Shown here piece after piece: positions 19,770-27,547 of a stretch of 41,716 nt of DNA; position 1 is the stretch's first letter, and the number at the start of each line of letters is the position of its first letter. The position numbers were made by a program, and so were the translations under genes. Source of the stretch: Bacteroidia bacterium (GTDB taxonomy: Bacteria > Bacteroidota > Bacteroidia > SXHM01). The stretch is taken from the NCBI GenBank assembly GCA_020054035.1, contig JAGVLY010000069.1:1-41716 (forward strand). Reading direction: 5' to 3'. The notes beneath the pieces were generated by a model. That model worked only from the letters and a program-made list of their open reading frames with translations. It did no database searches and was not told the origin of the DNA.

Positions 19770-22595
19770 ATGATAAACTTCATCAACGGCTTAGCCGGAA
19801 AAATATTCGGTAGTAAAGCCGACCGCGACATCAAAGAAGTGATGCCCCTGGTTGAAAAAATAAAAGTAGAATTCCCGAAACTTGCTTCCCTTTCTCATGA
19901 TCAGCTTCGCGCTAAATCAGACGACTTCCGTAAACGCATTCAGGATTTCCTGAAAACCGAAAACGATGAAATCGCTTCCATCCGCGAGAAGATTGAAAAC
20001 ACTCCTGACTTAGATGTGCATGAAAAAGAAAATCTTTACGAGCGCATCGATAAACTGGAAGAAGTCATTAAAGAAAAAACAAAAGAAATTCTTTTAGAAA
20101 TTCTTCCCGAGGCCTTTGCAGTAGTGAAAGAAACAGCAAAACGTTTCACCGAAAACGATACCCTGCGTGTTACTGCAACTCAAATGGACCGCGACCTTTC
20201 GGTGCATAAACAACACATCGCAATTGAAGGCAACTATGCCGTTTGGAGCAGCCGCTGGATTGCGGGCGGCACCGAAATAAAATGGGACATGGTACACTAC
20301 GATGTGCAGCTCATTGGCGGTATTGCGTTGCACATGGGCAAAATTGCCGAGATGGGAACAGGTGAAGGAAAAACGCTCGTGGGCACACTTCCTGTTTACC
20401 TGAACGCATTGACGGGAAAAGGTGTACACCTTGTTACAGTAAACAATTACCTCAGCCGCAGGGACAGCGAGTGGATGGGTCCTTTATTTGAGTTTCACGG
20501 AATAACAGTTGATTGCATTGACAACCACCAACCCAATTCCGAAGCCCGCAGAAAAGCCTATTTGGCCGACATTACCTACGGAACTAACAACGAGTTTGGT
20601 TTTGATTACCTGCGCGACAACATGGCGCGCAGCCCCGAAGACCTGGTGCAACGCAAGCACAATTACGCCATTGTGGATGAGGTCGATTCAGTTTTGATTG
20701 ACGATGCACGTACACCGCTCATTATTTCAGGACCAACTCCAAAAGGCGATAAACAGGAGTTCACAGAAATGAAACCAAAAATTGAACGACTGATTCAGGC
20801 TCAACGTAATTACGTTAACAATGCACTTTCGGAATCAAAACGTTTACTCAAAGAAGGAAAAGAAGAAGAAGGTGGTTTGTTGTTATACCGTTCGCAACGC
20901 GGTTTGCCGAAAAACAAGGCACACATCAAATACCTGAGTGAGCCGGGTGTAAAAACCATCATGCAGAAAACAGAAAACTACTACATGCAGGACCAGAACA
21001 AGGAAATGCACAAGGTAGATGCCGAACTGTTTTTTGTGATTGACGAGAAGACCAACTCCATTGAGTTAACCGAAAAAGGCATTGACCTTATCACCGGAAA
21101 CTCTGATGATACCGAGTTCTTCGTGCTTCCCGACATGGGAACTAAAGTGGCGGAAATAGAACACTTACACGTTGACGACCACGAAAAAGCAAAGAAGAAA
21201 GAAGAACTGATGCGTGACTTTGCCATTAAGTCAGAGCGCATTCACACCATCAACCAATTGCTGAAAGCATACACCTTATTTGAGTTGGATGTAGAGTATG
21301 TGGTGATTGAAAACAAAGTAAAAATTGTGGACGAGCAAACAGGTCGTATCATGGAAGGGCGCAGGTATTCCGATGGTTTGCACCAGGCGATTGAAGCAAA
21401 GGAAAATGTAAAGGTGGAAGCTGCAACACAAACGTATGCAACCATCACTTTGCAGAATTATTTCCGCATGTATAACAAGCTGGCGGGTATGACCGGAACT
21501 GCCGAAACAGAAGCAGGCGAGTTCTGGGATATTTACAAACTGGATGTGATGGTAATCCCTACCAATCGCCCGATTGCGCGTAACGACAGAGAAGATCTGG
21601 TTTACAAAACTGCCCGCGAAAAATACGGAGCAGTGATTGAAGAAATTGTGAAATTGACTGAGCAGGGACGCCCTGTTCTGGTGGGAACAACCTCGGTTGA
21701 GATTTCGGAATTGCTTTCGCGCATGTTGAAAATGAAAAACATTAAACACAATGTTTTGAATGCGAAGTTGCACCAACGCGAAGCCGAGATTGTTGCCGGT
21801 GCAGGACAAAAAGGAGCAGTTACCATTGCCACTAACATGGCTGGTCGCGGAACGGATATCAAGTTGGGTGCCGGTGTAAAAGAAGTGGGAGGTTTGGCAA
21901 TTGTAGGTACAGAGCGCCACGAATCAAGACGCGTTGACCGCCAGTTGCGTGGTCGTGCCGGCAGGCAGGGTGATCCCGGTTCTTCACAGTTCTTCGTTTC
22001 GTTGGAAGATAACCTGATGCGACTTTTCGGTGGCGACCGTATGACTAAATGGATGGACCGCCTCGGACACAAAGAAGGTGAGGTTATCCAGCATTCGGTG
22101 ATGACAAAATCCATTGAGCGAGCGCAGAAAAAAGTGGAGGAAAACAACTTCGGAACACGTAAACGTTTGCTGGAATACGATGACGTAATGAACTCGCAGC
22201 GCGAGGTAATTTACAAACGCAGACGCCATGCCCTGTATGGCGACCGCCTGTCGGTTGACATCTCGAACATGATTTATGACACCTGCGAAAGCGTGGTAGA
22301 ACAATACCGCGAGACAAAAGATTTTGAAGGATTTAAAATTGAGCTTATCCGCACCTTCTCGGTTGAATCGCCTGTTACTGCTGAAGAGTTTGCTTCCACC
22401 AACACACCGGTGCTGAGCGAAAAAGTGTTCCAATACTTAGAAGAAAAATACAAACAGAAAAAAGATTTCAGTGCCGAACGGGCATACCCTGTTATAAAAC
22501 AAGTGTATGAAAACGAAGGGCAAAGTTTTGAGAACATTGTAATTCCTTTCAGTGACGGTATAAAAACGCTGAACGTTGTTACAAATCTTAAATAA
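19770..22595 (+). CDS. secA: Preprotein translocase ATPase SecA, first 941 residues up to an in-frame TAA
   Basis: Motor ATPase of the Sec pathway, driving unfolded preproteins through SecYEG. Walker A MGTGEGKT is at 195-202. The DEAD-type motif is [20 protein letters not shown] (about 304-323), and NBD2 has [13 protein letters not shown] and [17 protein letters not shown]. Long insertions typical of Bacteroidota SecA account for its size. The frame closes at TAA 22593-22595 after VVTNLK, but the same frame continues immediately with [10 protein letters not shown] and the rest of SecA to 23060 (1097 codons in all, normal length). The stop falls before the two-helix finger, so the 941-residue product should not support translocation. 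Error, recent mutation and readthrough remain open. Confidence 0.95.
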
Positions 22596-23060
22596 GCATA
22601 CGAAACCCGCGGAAAAGTTTTGGCCACATCGTTTGAAAAAAACATTGTGCTTGCCATTATTGACGACATCTGGAAAGAGCACCTGCGCGAAATGGATGAG
22701 TTGAAATCATCCGTGCAGAATGCGGCTTACGAGCAAAAAGACCCCTTGCTGATTTATAAGTTCGAGTCGTTTGAGTTATTTAAAACATTGCTTGGAAAAA
22801 TAAATCGCGAGATAGTTCCTTTCCTTTTCAAAGGCACTTTGCCCGAACAGGCCCCTACAAGTTTCAAGCGTAACCTTGCACCGCCAAAACCCGAAGCCAA
22901 CCTGAAAACAGGAAGAGATGAAATTGGCGCACCCCGCCAACCCGGAGTTCCCAACACCGAGCAGGAAAAACCAATGCCTGTAAAAGTGGAAGACAAGATA
23001 GGTCGCAACGACCCTTGCCCTTGCGGAAGTGGTAAAAAGTATAAAAACTGTCACGGGTAA
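22596..23060 (+). pseudogene. secA: C-terminal part of SecA after the internal stop
   Basis: In the same frame as the upstream part, this segment encodes the helical scaffold continuation [20 protein letters not shown], the two-helix finger region ([18 protein letters not shown], with the tyrosine equivalent to the E. coli fingertip tyrosine), a Pro-rich linker and the zinc-binding SEC-C motif [20 protein letters not shown]. Sequence conservation looks complete, so no decay beyond the single TAA is visible. A TTG at 22620 could restart translation, but no ribosome-binding signal supports it. The secA/23116 terminator follows 3 bases later. Confidence 0.85.
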
Positions 23061-23115: not shown

Positions 23116-23490
23116 TTAATTCTGTTTTGCAGAACCACTCACCATGCTGATTGATTTAGTAACCAAGTCAGTATCGGTTTGCAATTGATAAAAATACTGC
23201 CCCGGAGCAAGTGTTGAAATATCATACGTTTCGTTGTACTCACCTGCTGTGCGGTTGCCGGCAAACAAAACTTTACCTACGCTGCCATCAACACTGAAAA
23301 TCATAAGCTTCACAGGCGTGTTTTGCGGAAGCTGATAGTTAATAGTAAGCGTAGAAGAAGAAGGATTAGGGTAGGCTGTCAGTTTAAACTGGTCGTCACC
23401 ATTGTTTTGGGACAAAGCCGGTTTAGCTGTTATGGCATTCATAAAAAATGCACTCAGCAGAATTACGATATAAGTTTTAATAGTAAACAT
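23116..23490 (-). CDS. Secreted mini-protein: signal peptide plus T9SS sorting domain
   Basis: A 124-residue protein with an N-terminal signal segment (about 1-28), then almost directly a type A T9SS C-terminal domain. The domain opens with FKLTAYPNPSSSTLTINYQL (about 36-55) and continues with VKLMIFSVDG and the closing LAPGQYFYQLQTDTDLVTKSI. No room is left for a cargo domain. Such sorting domains normally sit at the end of large surface proteins and direct their export and anchoring. It could be the remnant of a truncated cargo protein, a decoy or regulator, or a small surface protein in its own right. It is co-oriented with the HMA lipoprotein gene 57 bases upstream. Confidence 0.85.
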   Translation of the reverse strand: MFTIKTYIVILLSAFFMNAITAKPALSQNNGDDQFKLTAYPNPSSSTLTINYQLPQNTPVKLMIFSVDGSVGKVLFAGNRTAGEYNETYDISTLAPGQYFYQLQTDTDLVTKSISMVSGSAKQN

Positions 23491-23547: not shown

Positions 23548-23952
23548 TTAAACGGCAGTATCTTTCAACAAATCTTCTTCAATTGCATCCACTTCGTTGT
23601 CTTCTTCGCCTTCAGTTGCTTTCTTTTCAATTTTCACCTCTACATTGGTTACTTTGTATTGCCCTTCGTTTAAAGCAGCAATAGCAGCAAGAATATCTTT
23701 TTCGCTGGTCTTTGTATCATCAAATTTGAATGTGGCTGTCTTTTCTTCAAAGTTTACTTTGCTGTAAGTAACACCTGCCAGTTCAGCAACTGTTTTCTCA
23801 ATCGTTTTAGCGCATCCTTCGGCACAGGTCATTCCATCAAGCGTAATATTCATTTCGGCCGTAGAGACAACAGTATCTTTTCCGCCCGAAGAGCAGGAAT
23901 AATAAACCTGCATACTAACAAAAGCGAGAACAAAAAACAATACTTTCTTCAT
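23548..23952 (-). CDS. Heavy-metal-associated (HMA) domain lipoprotein
   Basis: From ATG 23952 it has 134 residues. A lipoprotein signal ends at YYSC with C20 as the lipid anchor. An HMA domain (about 33-100) carries the metal-binding motif GMTCAEGCAKT, with C43 and C47 spaced CX3C rather than the classical CXXC; this variant is known in Bacteroidota HMA proteins. The C-terminus is highly acidic (residues about 112-128). HMA domains bind Cu(I) or other soft metals, so a periplasmic or surface copper-binding role is likely. It diverges from the two copper-monooxygenase-like genes, which suggests a shared metal context (inference). The open frame extends to 23988, but the lipobox fits the later ATG. 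Confidence 0.88.
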   Translation of the reverse strand: MKKVLFFVLAFVSMQVYYSCSSGGKDTVVSTAEMNITLDGMTCAEGCAKTIEKTVAELAGVTYSKVNFEEKTATFKFDDTKTSEKDILAAIAALNEGQYKVTNVEVKIEKKATEGEEDNEVDAIEEDLLKDTAV

Positions 23953-23974
23953 GATTGGATTTTTTAAAATCGCG

Positions 23975-24003
23975 CAAATGTATATCAATTGATGCTTGTC
24001 AAA
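23975..24003 (-). promoter_or_regulatory. Promoter of the HMA lipoprotein gene (TTTG-N17-TACATTTG)
   Basis: On the minus strand TTTG (24003-24000), a 17-base spacer and TACATTTG (23982-23975) match the Bacteroidota consensus, 22 bases before the ATG at 23952. This is the best-formed promoter in the window. Confidence 0.65.
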
Positions 24004-24191: not shown

Positions 24192-25850
24192 ATGAAGCAT
24201 TTTTACATTTCTGCTGCACTTGTGTTCTCAGTTTTTACTGCAAAGGCACAATCAACTTATCAAAGCGTTTACAACCTCTTTCAAGCTAACTGCACCATTG
24301 GATGCCACGGCAATGGCGGCACTTCAGGCAACCTTGACCTGTATGGCGGAGGAAGCGCCAGCACCGTTTACAACAACATCGTTAATGTTACACCTGTAAA
24401 TCCTGCTGCTGCTGCAAAAGGTGAAAAACGAATTATGCCAGGTTATCCTGAAAGAAGTTTTTTATTGCGTAAATGTGCTACTACAGCTTGGGATAATGCT
24501 TACGCATTAGATGTTACCGAAGGCAATAACATGCCCGACAATCAACCTTCATTAGAAAAAGAAGAAATTGAATTGATTCGTCAATGGATACAATATGGCG
24601 CACCGCAAAGCGGGCAAGTGATAAGCACACAAACGCTTTATAATTATTACCATGTAAATGGCAGACCAAGAATTACACCTCCTCCTGCACCTGCTCCCGG
24701 TGAAGGTTTTCAGGTTCATTTCGGTCCTGTAATCCTCGATCCGTTGCAGGAAATTGAATATTACAAAAAAGAAGCCGTTTTCAACGCTACTCCCTTTGAA
24801 GCCAACAAACTTAGCTGTACAATAGATGATGATTCGCATCACTTTCTGCTTTTTGGTTTTCTACCCGGTGCTGAAAGCGAATTGGATGAGGGATTACGCA
24901 CGGTTGATGTTTCCAACGTGTTTCCTGATCAGACAAAATATATTGTAGGTTGGGTAGATTCAGAAACCACCGACCTGCCCGATAACACAGCTTATTATTT
25001 TCCTGACAGTGCAGTATTAGATTTGAATTACCACATCATCAATTATTCGGAAGATTCCATACTGGCTGCCGAAGCGTATGCAAATGTTTACACCCAACCA
25101 CTTGGAACTGCAGAAAGAGAAATGAAATCAGAGTTGGTAATTTACAATCCTACCGCATTATTAATCTTTAATAACGGAAACGAACAAACTTTTTCAGGCT
25201 CGCGCTTTGAAGCCGGTTCACAAGACGACTGGAATATTTGGTTTCTTTCTACCCATACTCACAAATACGGAACAGCTTACAATGTTTACAAACGCAATGC
25301 AAACGGAAGTAAAGGCGATATACTGTATGACGGAAATTACAATACCAATTACACCTTCAATCAGGGGTATTATGATTGGCAACACCCTGCTAATAAATAT
25401 TTTGATCCTTTGGAAACTGTTGATGCTTCCAACGGAATTATTCACGAAGCAAAATATAAAATCAGCGACCCCGATGAACAAGCATTTCTCATCACGTTTG
25501 GTTTAACAACCGCTGATGAGATGATGCTTATTTTCATGCAATATACGGTTAACGCTCCTATCGGAATTAACGAAGCAATTACAGCAGCAGAAAATGTTTC
25601 GGCTTATCCAAATCCTGTTGCAGACGTTTTGAATTTCTCGTATACTCTGAAAGAAGAATCAACAGTTGCAATTGATATTTATGATATCAGCGGAAAATTA
25701 GTTGCTAACCTGATGAACAAAACCGAAACAGCTGGCAAAAAGATTGCACAAATTAATACCAACGCTCCGGGTTGGACAAGCGGAACATATTATGTTCGCC
25801 TGAGTGTAAACGGTGAAAGTATTTCTAAACAAATTGTAAAAATAGATTAA
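24192..25850 (+). CDS. Secreted cytochrome c / copper type II monooxygenase-like protein with T9SS domain (paralog 1)
   Basis: 552 residues: a signal peptide (1-20); a small cytochrome c domain with the haem-type motif C34-x3-C38-H39 (NCTIGCHGNGG), candidate axial M114 in NNMPDNQP and the closing EIELIRQWIQYGAP; then a peptidylglycine-monooxygenase-like copper domain; and a C-terminal T9SS domain beginning VSAYPNPVADVLNFSY (about 469-484). Candidate copper ligands follow the PHM order: H216-H217 (DDSHHFLLF), H281 (LNYHIINY), H355 and H357 (THTHKYG), and M444 or M445 (DEMMLIF). The CX3CH spacing is atypical, so haem attachment is inferred. The substrate is unknown. It is followed after 8 bases by a paralog. 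Confidence 0.82.
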   Translation: MKHFYISAALVFSVFTAKAQSTYQSVYNLFQANCTIGCHGNGGTSGNLDLYGGGSASTVYNNIVNVTPVNPAAAAKGEKRIMPGYPERSFLLRKCATTAWDNAYALDVTEGNNMPDNQPSLEKEEIELIRQWIQYGAPQSGQVISTQTLYNYYHVNGRPRITPPPAPAPGEGFQVHFGPVILDPLQEIEYYKKEAVFNATPFEANKLSCTIDDDSHHFLLFGFLPGAESELDEGLRTVDVSNVFPDQTKYIVGWVDSETTDLPDNTAYYFPDSAVLDLNYHIINYSEDSILAAEAYANVYTQPLGTAEREMKSELVIYNPTALLIFNNGNEQTFSGSRFEAGSQDDWNIWFLSTHTHKYGTAYNVYKRNANGSKGDILYDGNYNTNYTFNQGYYDWQHPANKYFDPLETVDASNGIIHEAKYKISDPDEQAFLITFGLTTADEMMLIFMQYTVNAPIGINEAITAAENVSAYPNPVADVLNFSYTLKEESTVAIDIYDISGKLVANLMNKTETAGKKIAQINTNAPGWTSGTYYVRLSVNGESISKQIVKID

Positions 25851-25858
25851 GCCTTTTT

Positions 25859-27547
25859 ATGAAGAAGTTATTATTTGGCGCTGCCGCGCTTATTTCAATT
25901 AACGCAACAGCACAGGATACCTATCAGCAGGTGTATTCTCTTTTTCAGGCAAACTGCACCGTAGGATGCCACGGAAATGGCGGAACATCCGGCAGCCTTG
26001 ACCTTTACGGAGGTGGCGATGCATCGGTTGTATATGACAACATAGTAGATGTAACACCTGTAAACCCTACAGCAGTATCAAAAGGCTACAAACGCATTTA
26101 CCCCGGCCATCCCGAAAAAAGTTTTCTTTTGCGCAAATGCTCTTACAATGCGTGGGATGATTATTACCCTATTGAAGTTTCGGAAGGAAATGCTATGCCG
26201 GATAATCAACCCGTTCTTGAAAAAGAAGAGGTAGAATTAATCCGTCAATGGATTCTTTACGGTGCAAAAGAAACCGGAAACTTTGTTGATACACAGGTTT
26301 TGTTTGACTACTACCATGTAAATGGAAAACCACGAATGGCAACACCTGCAGCACCTGCCGAAGGCGAAGGTTTTCAATTACGCATGGGGCCTTTCTTTCT
26401 TCCTCCTTTGCAGGAAGTAGAGTTCTTTAAAAAACAGGATATAACATTAGCCGACAGCGTTGATGTAGATAAACTGGAAACATGGTTTAATGATGAGTCG
26501 CACCACTTTATTATTTACAAATTTAATGATGGTACAGATGCCGATTATCCTGCCGGATTGAGAAACATTAACGATCCCGAAGGCAGTTCACTTGGCGTAA
26601 ACGAAATGATTGCCACTTGGCAAGATGCATTTGCTTACAACCTGCCCGAACAAACTGCTTTCAGATGGAAAGGAGATCAAATTCTGGATATGAATTATCA
26701 TATTGTAAATTACGATGAAGATTCAATTATAGCCGCAGAATCATATACAAATATCTACACTGCTCCTGTTGATACAAACAATATTGTAATGACTTCGGTT
26801 TTGATTCCAATTAATGCAGTTGAATTTATTTTAGGAACAGGAACATTCGGACAAGACTTGATTATTCCGAATGATGGTGAAGTGCATACCTTTACCTATC
26901 GTTTGGCGTTCCCGTTCTATCCTCTTGCTCCTACATGGCATATCTGGTCAATTCAATCGCACACACATGCGCGCGGACAGGATTTTGATATTTACAAAAG
27001 CACTCCTGACGGACAAAAAGGCGAGCAATTTTATGAAGGATTTTATAACCGCGATTACACATTCAATCAGGGTTTTTATGACTGGGAGCATCCTGCAGTT
27101 CGTTTCTTTGAGCCTTTTTATGAAGTTCCATTGCAAACAGGTTTAATCTTTGAAGCTGTTTACCAAAATCTCACTGATGACACACTCTATTGGGGAAATA
27201 CCACCAATGATGAAATGATGTTATTTTATGTTCAGTATACCGAAGAAGCTTTGCCTACATCTTCTGTTAAGGAACAAACAAACCCGGTTTCGTTTACAAG
27301 CTACCCAAACCCGTTTACCGAAAGCACTCAGATTTATGTGAACCTGCCTGCATCTGACAGAATACAATTAGATGTATTTAACATGGCTGGCGAAAAAATC
27401 ACTACGCTTGCCGATGCACAGTTTGGTGCAGGACAACACCGTTTTGATTTTTCGTCAAAGGCGCTGAATCTGGCCTCGGGAATTTATCTGGCGCGTTTGA
27501 ATACTTTGCAGGGAACGCAGAGTATCAGAATGACGGTAATAGACTAA
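25859..27547 (+). CDS. Secreted cytochrome c / copper type II monooxygenase-like protein with T9SS domain (paralog 2)
   Basis: 562 residues, a clear tandem paralog of the preceding gene with the same four-part plan. A signal peptide ends at about residue 19, and the cytochrome-like domain has C33-x3-C37-H38 (NCTVGCHGNGG), M113 in NAMPDNQP and the EVELIRQWILYGAK end. Copper-site residues are H215-H216 (DESHHFIIY), H281 (MNYHIVNY), H368 and H370 (SHTHARG), and M453 or M454 (DEMMLFY). The T9SS domain starts FTSYPNPFTESTQIYVNL (about 479-496). All candidate ligands are kept in both copies while the loops differ, which argues that both are functional and perhaps differ in substrate. It starts 8 bases after paralog 1, in one operon. 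Confidence 0.82.
   Translation: MKKLLFGAAALISINATAQDTYQQVYSLFQANCTVGCHGNGGTSGSLDLYGGGDASVVYDNIVDVTPVNPTAVSKGYKRIYPGHPEKSFLLRKCSYNAWDDYYPIEVSEGNAMPDNQPVLEKEEVELIRQWILYGAKETGNFVDTQVLFDYYHVNGKPRMATPAAPAEGEGFQLRMGPFFLPPLQEVEFFKKQDITLADSVDVDKLETWFNDESHHFIIYKFNDGTDADYPAGLRNINDPEGSSLGVNEMIATWQDAFAYNLPEQTAFRWKGDQILDMNYHIVNYDEDSIIAAESYTNIYTAPVDTNNIVMTSVLIPINAVEFILGTGTFGQDLIIPNDGEVHTFTYRLAFPFYPLAPTWHIWSIQSHTHARGQDFDIYKSTPDGQKGEQFYEGFYNRDYTFNQGFYDWEHPAVRFFEPFYEVPLQTGLIFEAVYQNLTDDTLYWGNTTNDEMMLFYVQYTEEALPTSSVKEQTNPVSFTSYPNPFTESTQIYVNLPASDRIQLDVFNMAGEKITTLADAQFGAGQHRFDFSSKALNLASGIYLARLNTLQGTQSIRMTVID

Follow-up and report, generated by a model that had tools for sequence, protein, structure and literature searches.

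The window analysed here, a stretch of 41,716 nucleotides, is one entire contig (C61; JAGVLY010000069.1) of a Bacteroidia genome (assembly GCA_020054035.1; 1.87 Mb, 68% complete). It contains two adjacent forward-strand genes, P1 (P0001; 24192..25850, 552 aa) and P2 (P0002; 25859..27547, 562 aa), which are separated by 8 bases and encode proteins that are 44% identical over their full length. Both proteins carry the same elements in the same order: a signal-peptide-like N terminus; a haem domain with a C-x3-C-H (CX3CH) motif; a domain resembling peptidylglycine hydroxylating monooxygenase (PHM); and a type A sorting domain of the type IX secretion system (T9SS). The haem domain spans about 120 residues, with an MP motif 80 residues beyond CX3CH, and the PHM-like domain about 320 residues, along which HH, H, HTH and DEM follow one another. 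A first-pass annotation, made from the sequence alone, had described these open reading frames, their coordinates and the CX3CH motif of both paralogs, all of which are confirmed (CTIGCH from residue 34 in P1 and CTVGCH from residue 33 in P2).

All of the following features are on the + strand. In P1, the signal-peptide-like N terminus (MKHFYISAALVFSVFTAKAQ; 24192..24251), judged by eye from the translation, is followed by the cytochrome c domain (24249..24611; CTIGCH at residues 34-39, candidate axial Met114 in the MP motif; TIGR03806, E 8.3e-7), by the PHM-like domain, delimited from family alignments (24624..25580; candidate ligands H216/H217, H281, H355/H357 and M444), and by the sorting domain (25605..25838; Por_Secre_tail at residues 472-549, 49 bits). 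The corresponding features of P2 are: the N terminus (MKKLLFGAAALISINATAQD; 25859..25918), likewise judged by eye from the translation; the cytochrome c domain (25916..26278; CTVGCH at residues 33-38, candidate axial Met113), identified from alignments, profile matches and a model with pLDDT 93; the PHM-like double jelly-roll domain (26291..27247; candidate ligands H215/H216, H281, H368/H370 and M453), identified from profiles, the model and alignments; and the sorting domain (27302..27523; Por_Secre_tail at residues 482-555, 30.9 bits). In addition to the candidate ligands, H411 of P2, which lies within an EHP motif of the copper domain, is near-invariant in the family.

The copper domain can be firmly assigned to the PHM/dopamine beta-hydroxylase (DBH) type of fold on the basis of profiles and structure prediction. 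An AlphaFold2 model of P2 residues 20-468, which covers the haem and copper domains together and was built from a 67-sequence alignment, has a pLDDT of 94.6 and a pTM of 0.92. The 31 best matches of this model in the PDB, as found with Foldseek, are all PHM or DBH (E 4e-15 to 1e-11), with TM-scores (target) of 0.53-0.71 for the PHM matches. Moreover, a profile of the wider family (12 sequences comprising the window proteins and other PF03712 proteins) aligns with rat PHM, in a form letter-identical to PDB 4e4z, at E 3.5e-10 and a probability of 96.7 in hhalign. In this alignment HH107/108, H172, H242xH244 and M314 of rat PHM are in register with HH, H, HxH and M of the window proteins; the narrower alignment A2 scores lower, shows the identical ligand order and displaces H172 by one or two positions. 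Single-sequence scores are marginal: PF03712 gives P2 22.5 bits, just short of the cut-off of 23 (24.5 bits in the genome search), and does not match P1; PF01082 matches neither protein; and a sequence search of P1, P2 and the family profiles against PDB chains finds neither PHM nor DBH. The assignment therefore rests on the profiles, the predicted structure and the conservation within the family. Structure prediction had been proposed in the first-pass annotation as a check on its PHM-like domain, and the predicted fold agrees with it.

The six candidate copper ligands are invariant in all 28 homologues that were collected without a motif seed and in all 97 distinct homologues, among which pairs fall to about 30% identity. 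The scan that supplied most of the 97 was seeded by a pattern containing DEM, so that M453 was partly selected for while the histidines were not. All six are also kept in the divergent 12-sequence set, and such conservation across the alignments is more than chance. The earlier claim that both paralogs keep every candidate copper ligand in the order of PHM thus stands.

The residues with which PHM binds its peptide are a different matter. The position of PHM Arg240 (P2 residue 366) is occupied by S, G, Q or T and never by Arg in the 97 sequences; Asn316 and Tyr318 are not kept either, the corresponding P2 positions being L/G/V/I (455) and mostly F/Y (457). In PHM these three residues bind the C-terminal carboxylate of peptidylglycine. 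The copper domain has no cysteine in P2 and one in P1, which is too few for the disulfides of PHM. Since both the anchoring residues and the disulfides are absent, peptidylglycine is unlikely to be the substrate of P1 or P2, as judged from the alignments.

From its motif and profile matches we conclude that the N-terminal domain is a divergent c-type cytochrome domain and a putative haem binder. A CxnCH motif occurs at the haem site in 96 of the 97 homologues, with two residues between the cysteines in 38, three in 34, four in 23 and five in one; the remaining homologue, L106, has no motif. The candidate axial Met at P2 position 113 is kept in 90 of the 97, and some of the others have a His nearby. 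Among 67 haem domains, 48 match the SO2930 di-haem cytochrome family (TIGR03806; best E 2.3e-9) over about 100-110 residues, 33 match Cytochrome_CBB3 and 24 match PSCyt1 (PF07635). The modelled haem domain of P2 is helical. The annotation had stressed that CX3CH departs from CX2CH, but spacings of two, three, four and five residues occur at the identical site, which rules out CX3CH as the marker of an unusual haem. The x2, x3 and x4 spacings interchange at least 16 times on a tree built from the rest of the protein, and even close relatives differ (x4 in L050, x2 in L053).

The fusion of haem and copper domains extends well beyond the window. Every one of the seven genomes sampled from the genus has relatives, as do 14 of the 53 good genomes of the relatives sample, with up to six per genome. 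A PF03712 search of 297 Bacteroidota genomes gave matches in 29 genomes. In the 30 PF03712 loci that were read, all 29 proteins with a complete N terminus carry a CxnCH domain before the copper domain in the same frame (L140, cut by a contig end, was left out of this count). The presence of CxnCH in every complete PF03712 protein argues for haem and copper working together, and the fusion, which had been described for the two paralogs and for which a search in other genomes had been suggested, turns out to be recurrent and no peculiarity of theirs; on this sequence evidence it is how this copper domain normally occurs in Bacteroidota.

The PF03712 proteins of Bacteroidota fall into several groups: the window family, which carries the T9SS domain; lipoproteins that lack the T9SS tail (L122/L132); a second T9SS group (L121 type) whose haem domain is shorter; and L141, in which redoxin, haem and copper domains are combined. 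All have an N-terminal CxnCH domain followed by a six-ligand copper domain. They differ from the window family in their lipobox anchoring (L122/L132), in an extra redoxin domain (L141), or, in the L121-type group, in a shorter haem domain that bears the motif CHRxGEIAPF; with the profile built from the window family this group scores only about 20 bits. None of these bacterial proteins was found to be characterised in the searchable literature. The redoxin-fused protein (L141:1450-3255, - strand) joins a redoxin/AhpC-TSA domain, a CxxCH domain and a PHM-like copper domain in a single 602-aa frame. The genome of the window itself encodes a more distant haem-PHM protein on contig C10 (L123:316-1869; CTPCH, PF03712 30-33 bits), which belongs to the group with the shorter haem domain.

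On balance we think it probable, though by no means certain, that P1 and P2 are exported and anchored by T9SS and act as dicopper monooxygenases with the PHM/DBH fold, their N-terminal c-type haem taking the place of ascorbate as reductant. We infer haem and copper binding, the direction of electron flow, the monooxygenase activity and the nature of the substrates. In the proposed mechanism, the haem would receive electrons from a reduced donor, either a small reductant or a cytochrome of the periplasm, the outer membrane or the extracellular space; the haem would hand electrons singly to the CuH site (HH + H); and O2 activated at the CuM site (HxH + Met) would hydroxylate a C-H bond in some organic compound outside the cell that is not peptidylglycine. 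The haem is a plausible source of electrons because the two domains are modelled together with confidence and because their fusion is recurrent. The high pTM suggests a fixed arrangement of the two domains, which would be suited to direct transfer. P1 and P2 probably act on different substrates, as their catalytic domains have diverged while the haem input is of the same type.

Several observations weigh against this interpretation. PHM chemistry requires two electrons per turnover and one haem stores one; a single haem delivers one electron per reduction, so an outside electron source would still be required, and the earlier description of a 'self-contained' oxidase was overstated. The Cytochrome_CBB3 and PSCyt1 matches, significant by E-value, are below the curated cut-offs, and the TIGR03806 match is partial. 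Foldseek of the haem domain alone, a small haem-free model, gave no PDB match. L106 is a natural homologue that keeps all copper ligands and lacks CxnCH, which means that not every member strictly requires the haem. In addition, an actinobacterial PHM-like lipoprotein from Nonomuraea has no haem motif, which indicates that bacterial PHM-like proteins in general need no haem domain. The plasmid searches found no close relative and returned only this one haem-less actinobacterial PHM-like protein.

Three other explanations have to be considered. Electrons might flow in the reverse direction, the copper domain oxidising its substrate and the haem accepting the electrons and passing them to the respiratory chain or to extracellular acceptors, so that the protein would be a dehydrogenase or oxidase. 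The haem domain does resemble the electron-transfer domains of PSCyt1 and the SO2930 family, and a single-haem surface protein without an obvious electron supply could readily lose electrons. However, every CuH and CuM ligand of PHM is present, the Met of CuM among them, and to our knowledge all characterised enzymes with that set (PHM, DBH and tyramine beta-hydroxylase (TBH)) are O2-dependent monooxygenases that need an external reductant, which makes reverse flow unlikely. It is also conceivable that the proteins are monooxygenases of the PHM type supplied with electrons by small molecules, such as quinols or ascorbate-like compounds, and that the haem domain is structural, vestigial or used, for example, in docking. 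L106 provides the best argument for a dispensable haem; the Nonomuraea lipoprotein is in line with it, and the variation of the haem motif from 2 to 5 residues could mean relaxed constraint. A vestigial domain, however, would be expected to lose the two Cys and the His, which are kept in 96 of 97 sequences, and Met113, kept in 90 of 97; moreover, three sequence groups within the phylum share the fusion. We regard a dispensable haem as improbable.

An interpretation without catalysis, in which these are surface copper (and haem) proteins for acquisition, storage or sensing, draws on the HMA-domain lipoprotein encoded next to P1 (see below), on the many paralogs per genome (up to six) and on the absence of an adjoining substrate or pathway gene. 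Copper proteins used for storage or uptake typically carry many copper ions and can accommodate changes of ligand, whereas here neither three-residue site of a known catalytic pair ever varies, while identity over the rest of the domain falls to about 30%. A non-enzymatic role seems quite improbable.

PHM and DBH are textbook eukaryotic enzymes that act in the synthesis of animal hormones and neurotransmitters, with electrons supplied by ascorbate (vitamin C). A 2020 metalloproteome review lists PHM and DBM under eukaryotes only (PMC7435645), and elsewhere the double jelly-roll fold is noted as shared and PHM is described as widespread in eukaryotes (PMC8812541). The window proteins share with rat PHM (PDB 1phm/1sdw/3mll) the double jelly-roll fold, the six copper ligands in the same order and at similar spacing, and the local motifs HTH, FYxxEHP and [DE]EM. 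They differ from it in the missing Arg240 anchor and Asn316/Tyr318 pair, the shortage of cysteines for disulfides, the additional N-terminal haem domain and the T9SS tail; identity in the structural alignment is 14-17%. With human DBH (PDB 4zel) they share the fold and the ligand set (Foldseek E ~6e-15), with no detectable sequence match. DBH has an additional N-terminal domain, DOMON; in the window proteins the N-terminal domain is instead a CxnCH haem domain, and secretion is by T9SS. The haem domain is similar to the SO2930 family (TIGR03806) and planctomycete PSCyt1 (PF07635) over about 100-110 residues, but here a single haem domain is joined to a PHM-like domain, and the matches are partial and far below the full-length cut-off.

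The fold and the copper site are thus of a known kind, and the haem-coupled, surface-exported bacterial form is present in the databases with no describing paper found. A literature search, which covered mostly open (non-subscription) papers, found no report of a cytochrome-PHM fusion and is a weak negative. More tentatively, and with somewhat less than even confidence, we suggest that surface dicopper monooxygenases form a large and so far unrecognised class in Bacteroidota, one in which covalent haem c replaces ascorbate as the obligatory electron input and the two cysteines of the haem site may be separated by 2, 3, 4 or 5 residues. If true, a widespread bacterial form with its own haem would alter the view of where the PHM/DBH class occurs and originated. 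It would also provide a natural system in which electron delivery to the uncoupled CuH and CuM sites can be followed optically via the haem, with a bearing on copper reduction and coupling, and would put secreted C-H hydroxylases on offer. The free variation in spacing at one haem site is itself a natural experiment on what cytochrome c maturation accepts, and L106 (L106:6001-7269), with CTDALLADD in the place of CxnCH, is a possible natural haem-less control.

P1 and P2 do not diverge evenly along their length. In every genome of the genus their haem domains are about 71% identical, their copper domains 41-47% and their tails about 20%. A clade of P1 and P2 is rejected by the copper domains (p 2e-8) and not by the haem domains (p 0.21). 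The likeness of the haem domains suggests exchange or conversion of the haem module. Such an exchange is not claimed here, as the second half of the test gave p 0.67 with 97 rows versus 0.01 with 36 rows.

Export of both proteins by T9SS, as had been proposed, is supported by Por_Secre_tail scores above the curated cut-off of 27 bits in P1 (49 bits) and P2 (30.9 bits) and by the presence of SprA in the same genome and in the genus. A cytochrome c assembly protein is also present in the genus, and together with SprA it would make both export and haem attachment possible. A promoter scan gave matches no better than those in shuffled sequence.

Divergent from P1 lies a gene for an HMA-domain lipoprotein (23548..23988, - strand; GMTCAEGC), and beyond it a gene for a 124-aa protein made up almost entirely of a signal peptide and a T9SS sorting domain (23116..23490, - strand); both were identified by domain match and conservation of the locus. 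Six related genomes keep the gene order T9SS-tail protein, HMA lipoprotein, P1, P2. The HMA gene lies beside P1-type genes in 10 of 11 loci versus 0 of 67 other loci, and it is close to P1-type genes in four of five Flavobacteriales loci, with an EamA-type transporter gene between them in L051. Judging by its HMA domain, this lipoprotein is likely to be a copper-handling partner. Its motif, MTCAEGC, has the spacing C-x3-C and not the usual CxxC of HMA domains, and C-x3-C is kept in the Flavobacteriales relatives L048, L051, L055 and L105. The bare sorting-domain protein is 75-92% identical across the six related genomes. Further upstream, secA is apparently split (region 21984-23060): the open reading frame at 19770-22595 ends and the C-terminal part, with its zinc-binding tail, continues in another frame at 22620-23060, which is probably due to a frameshift or an assembly error.

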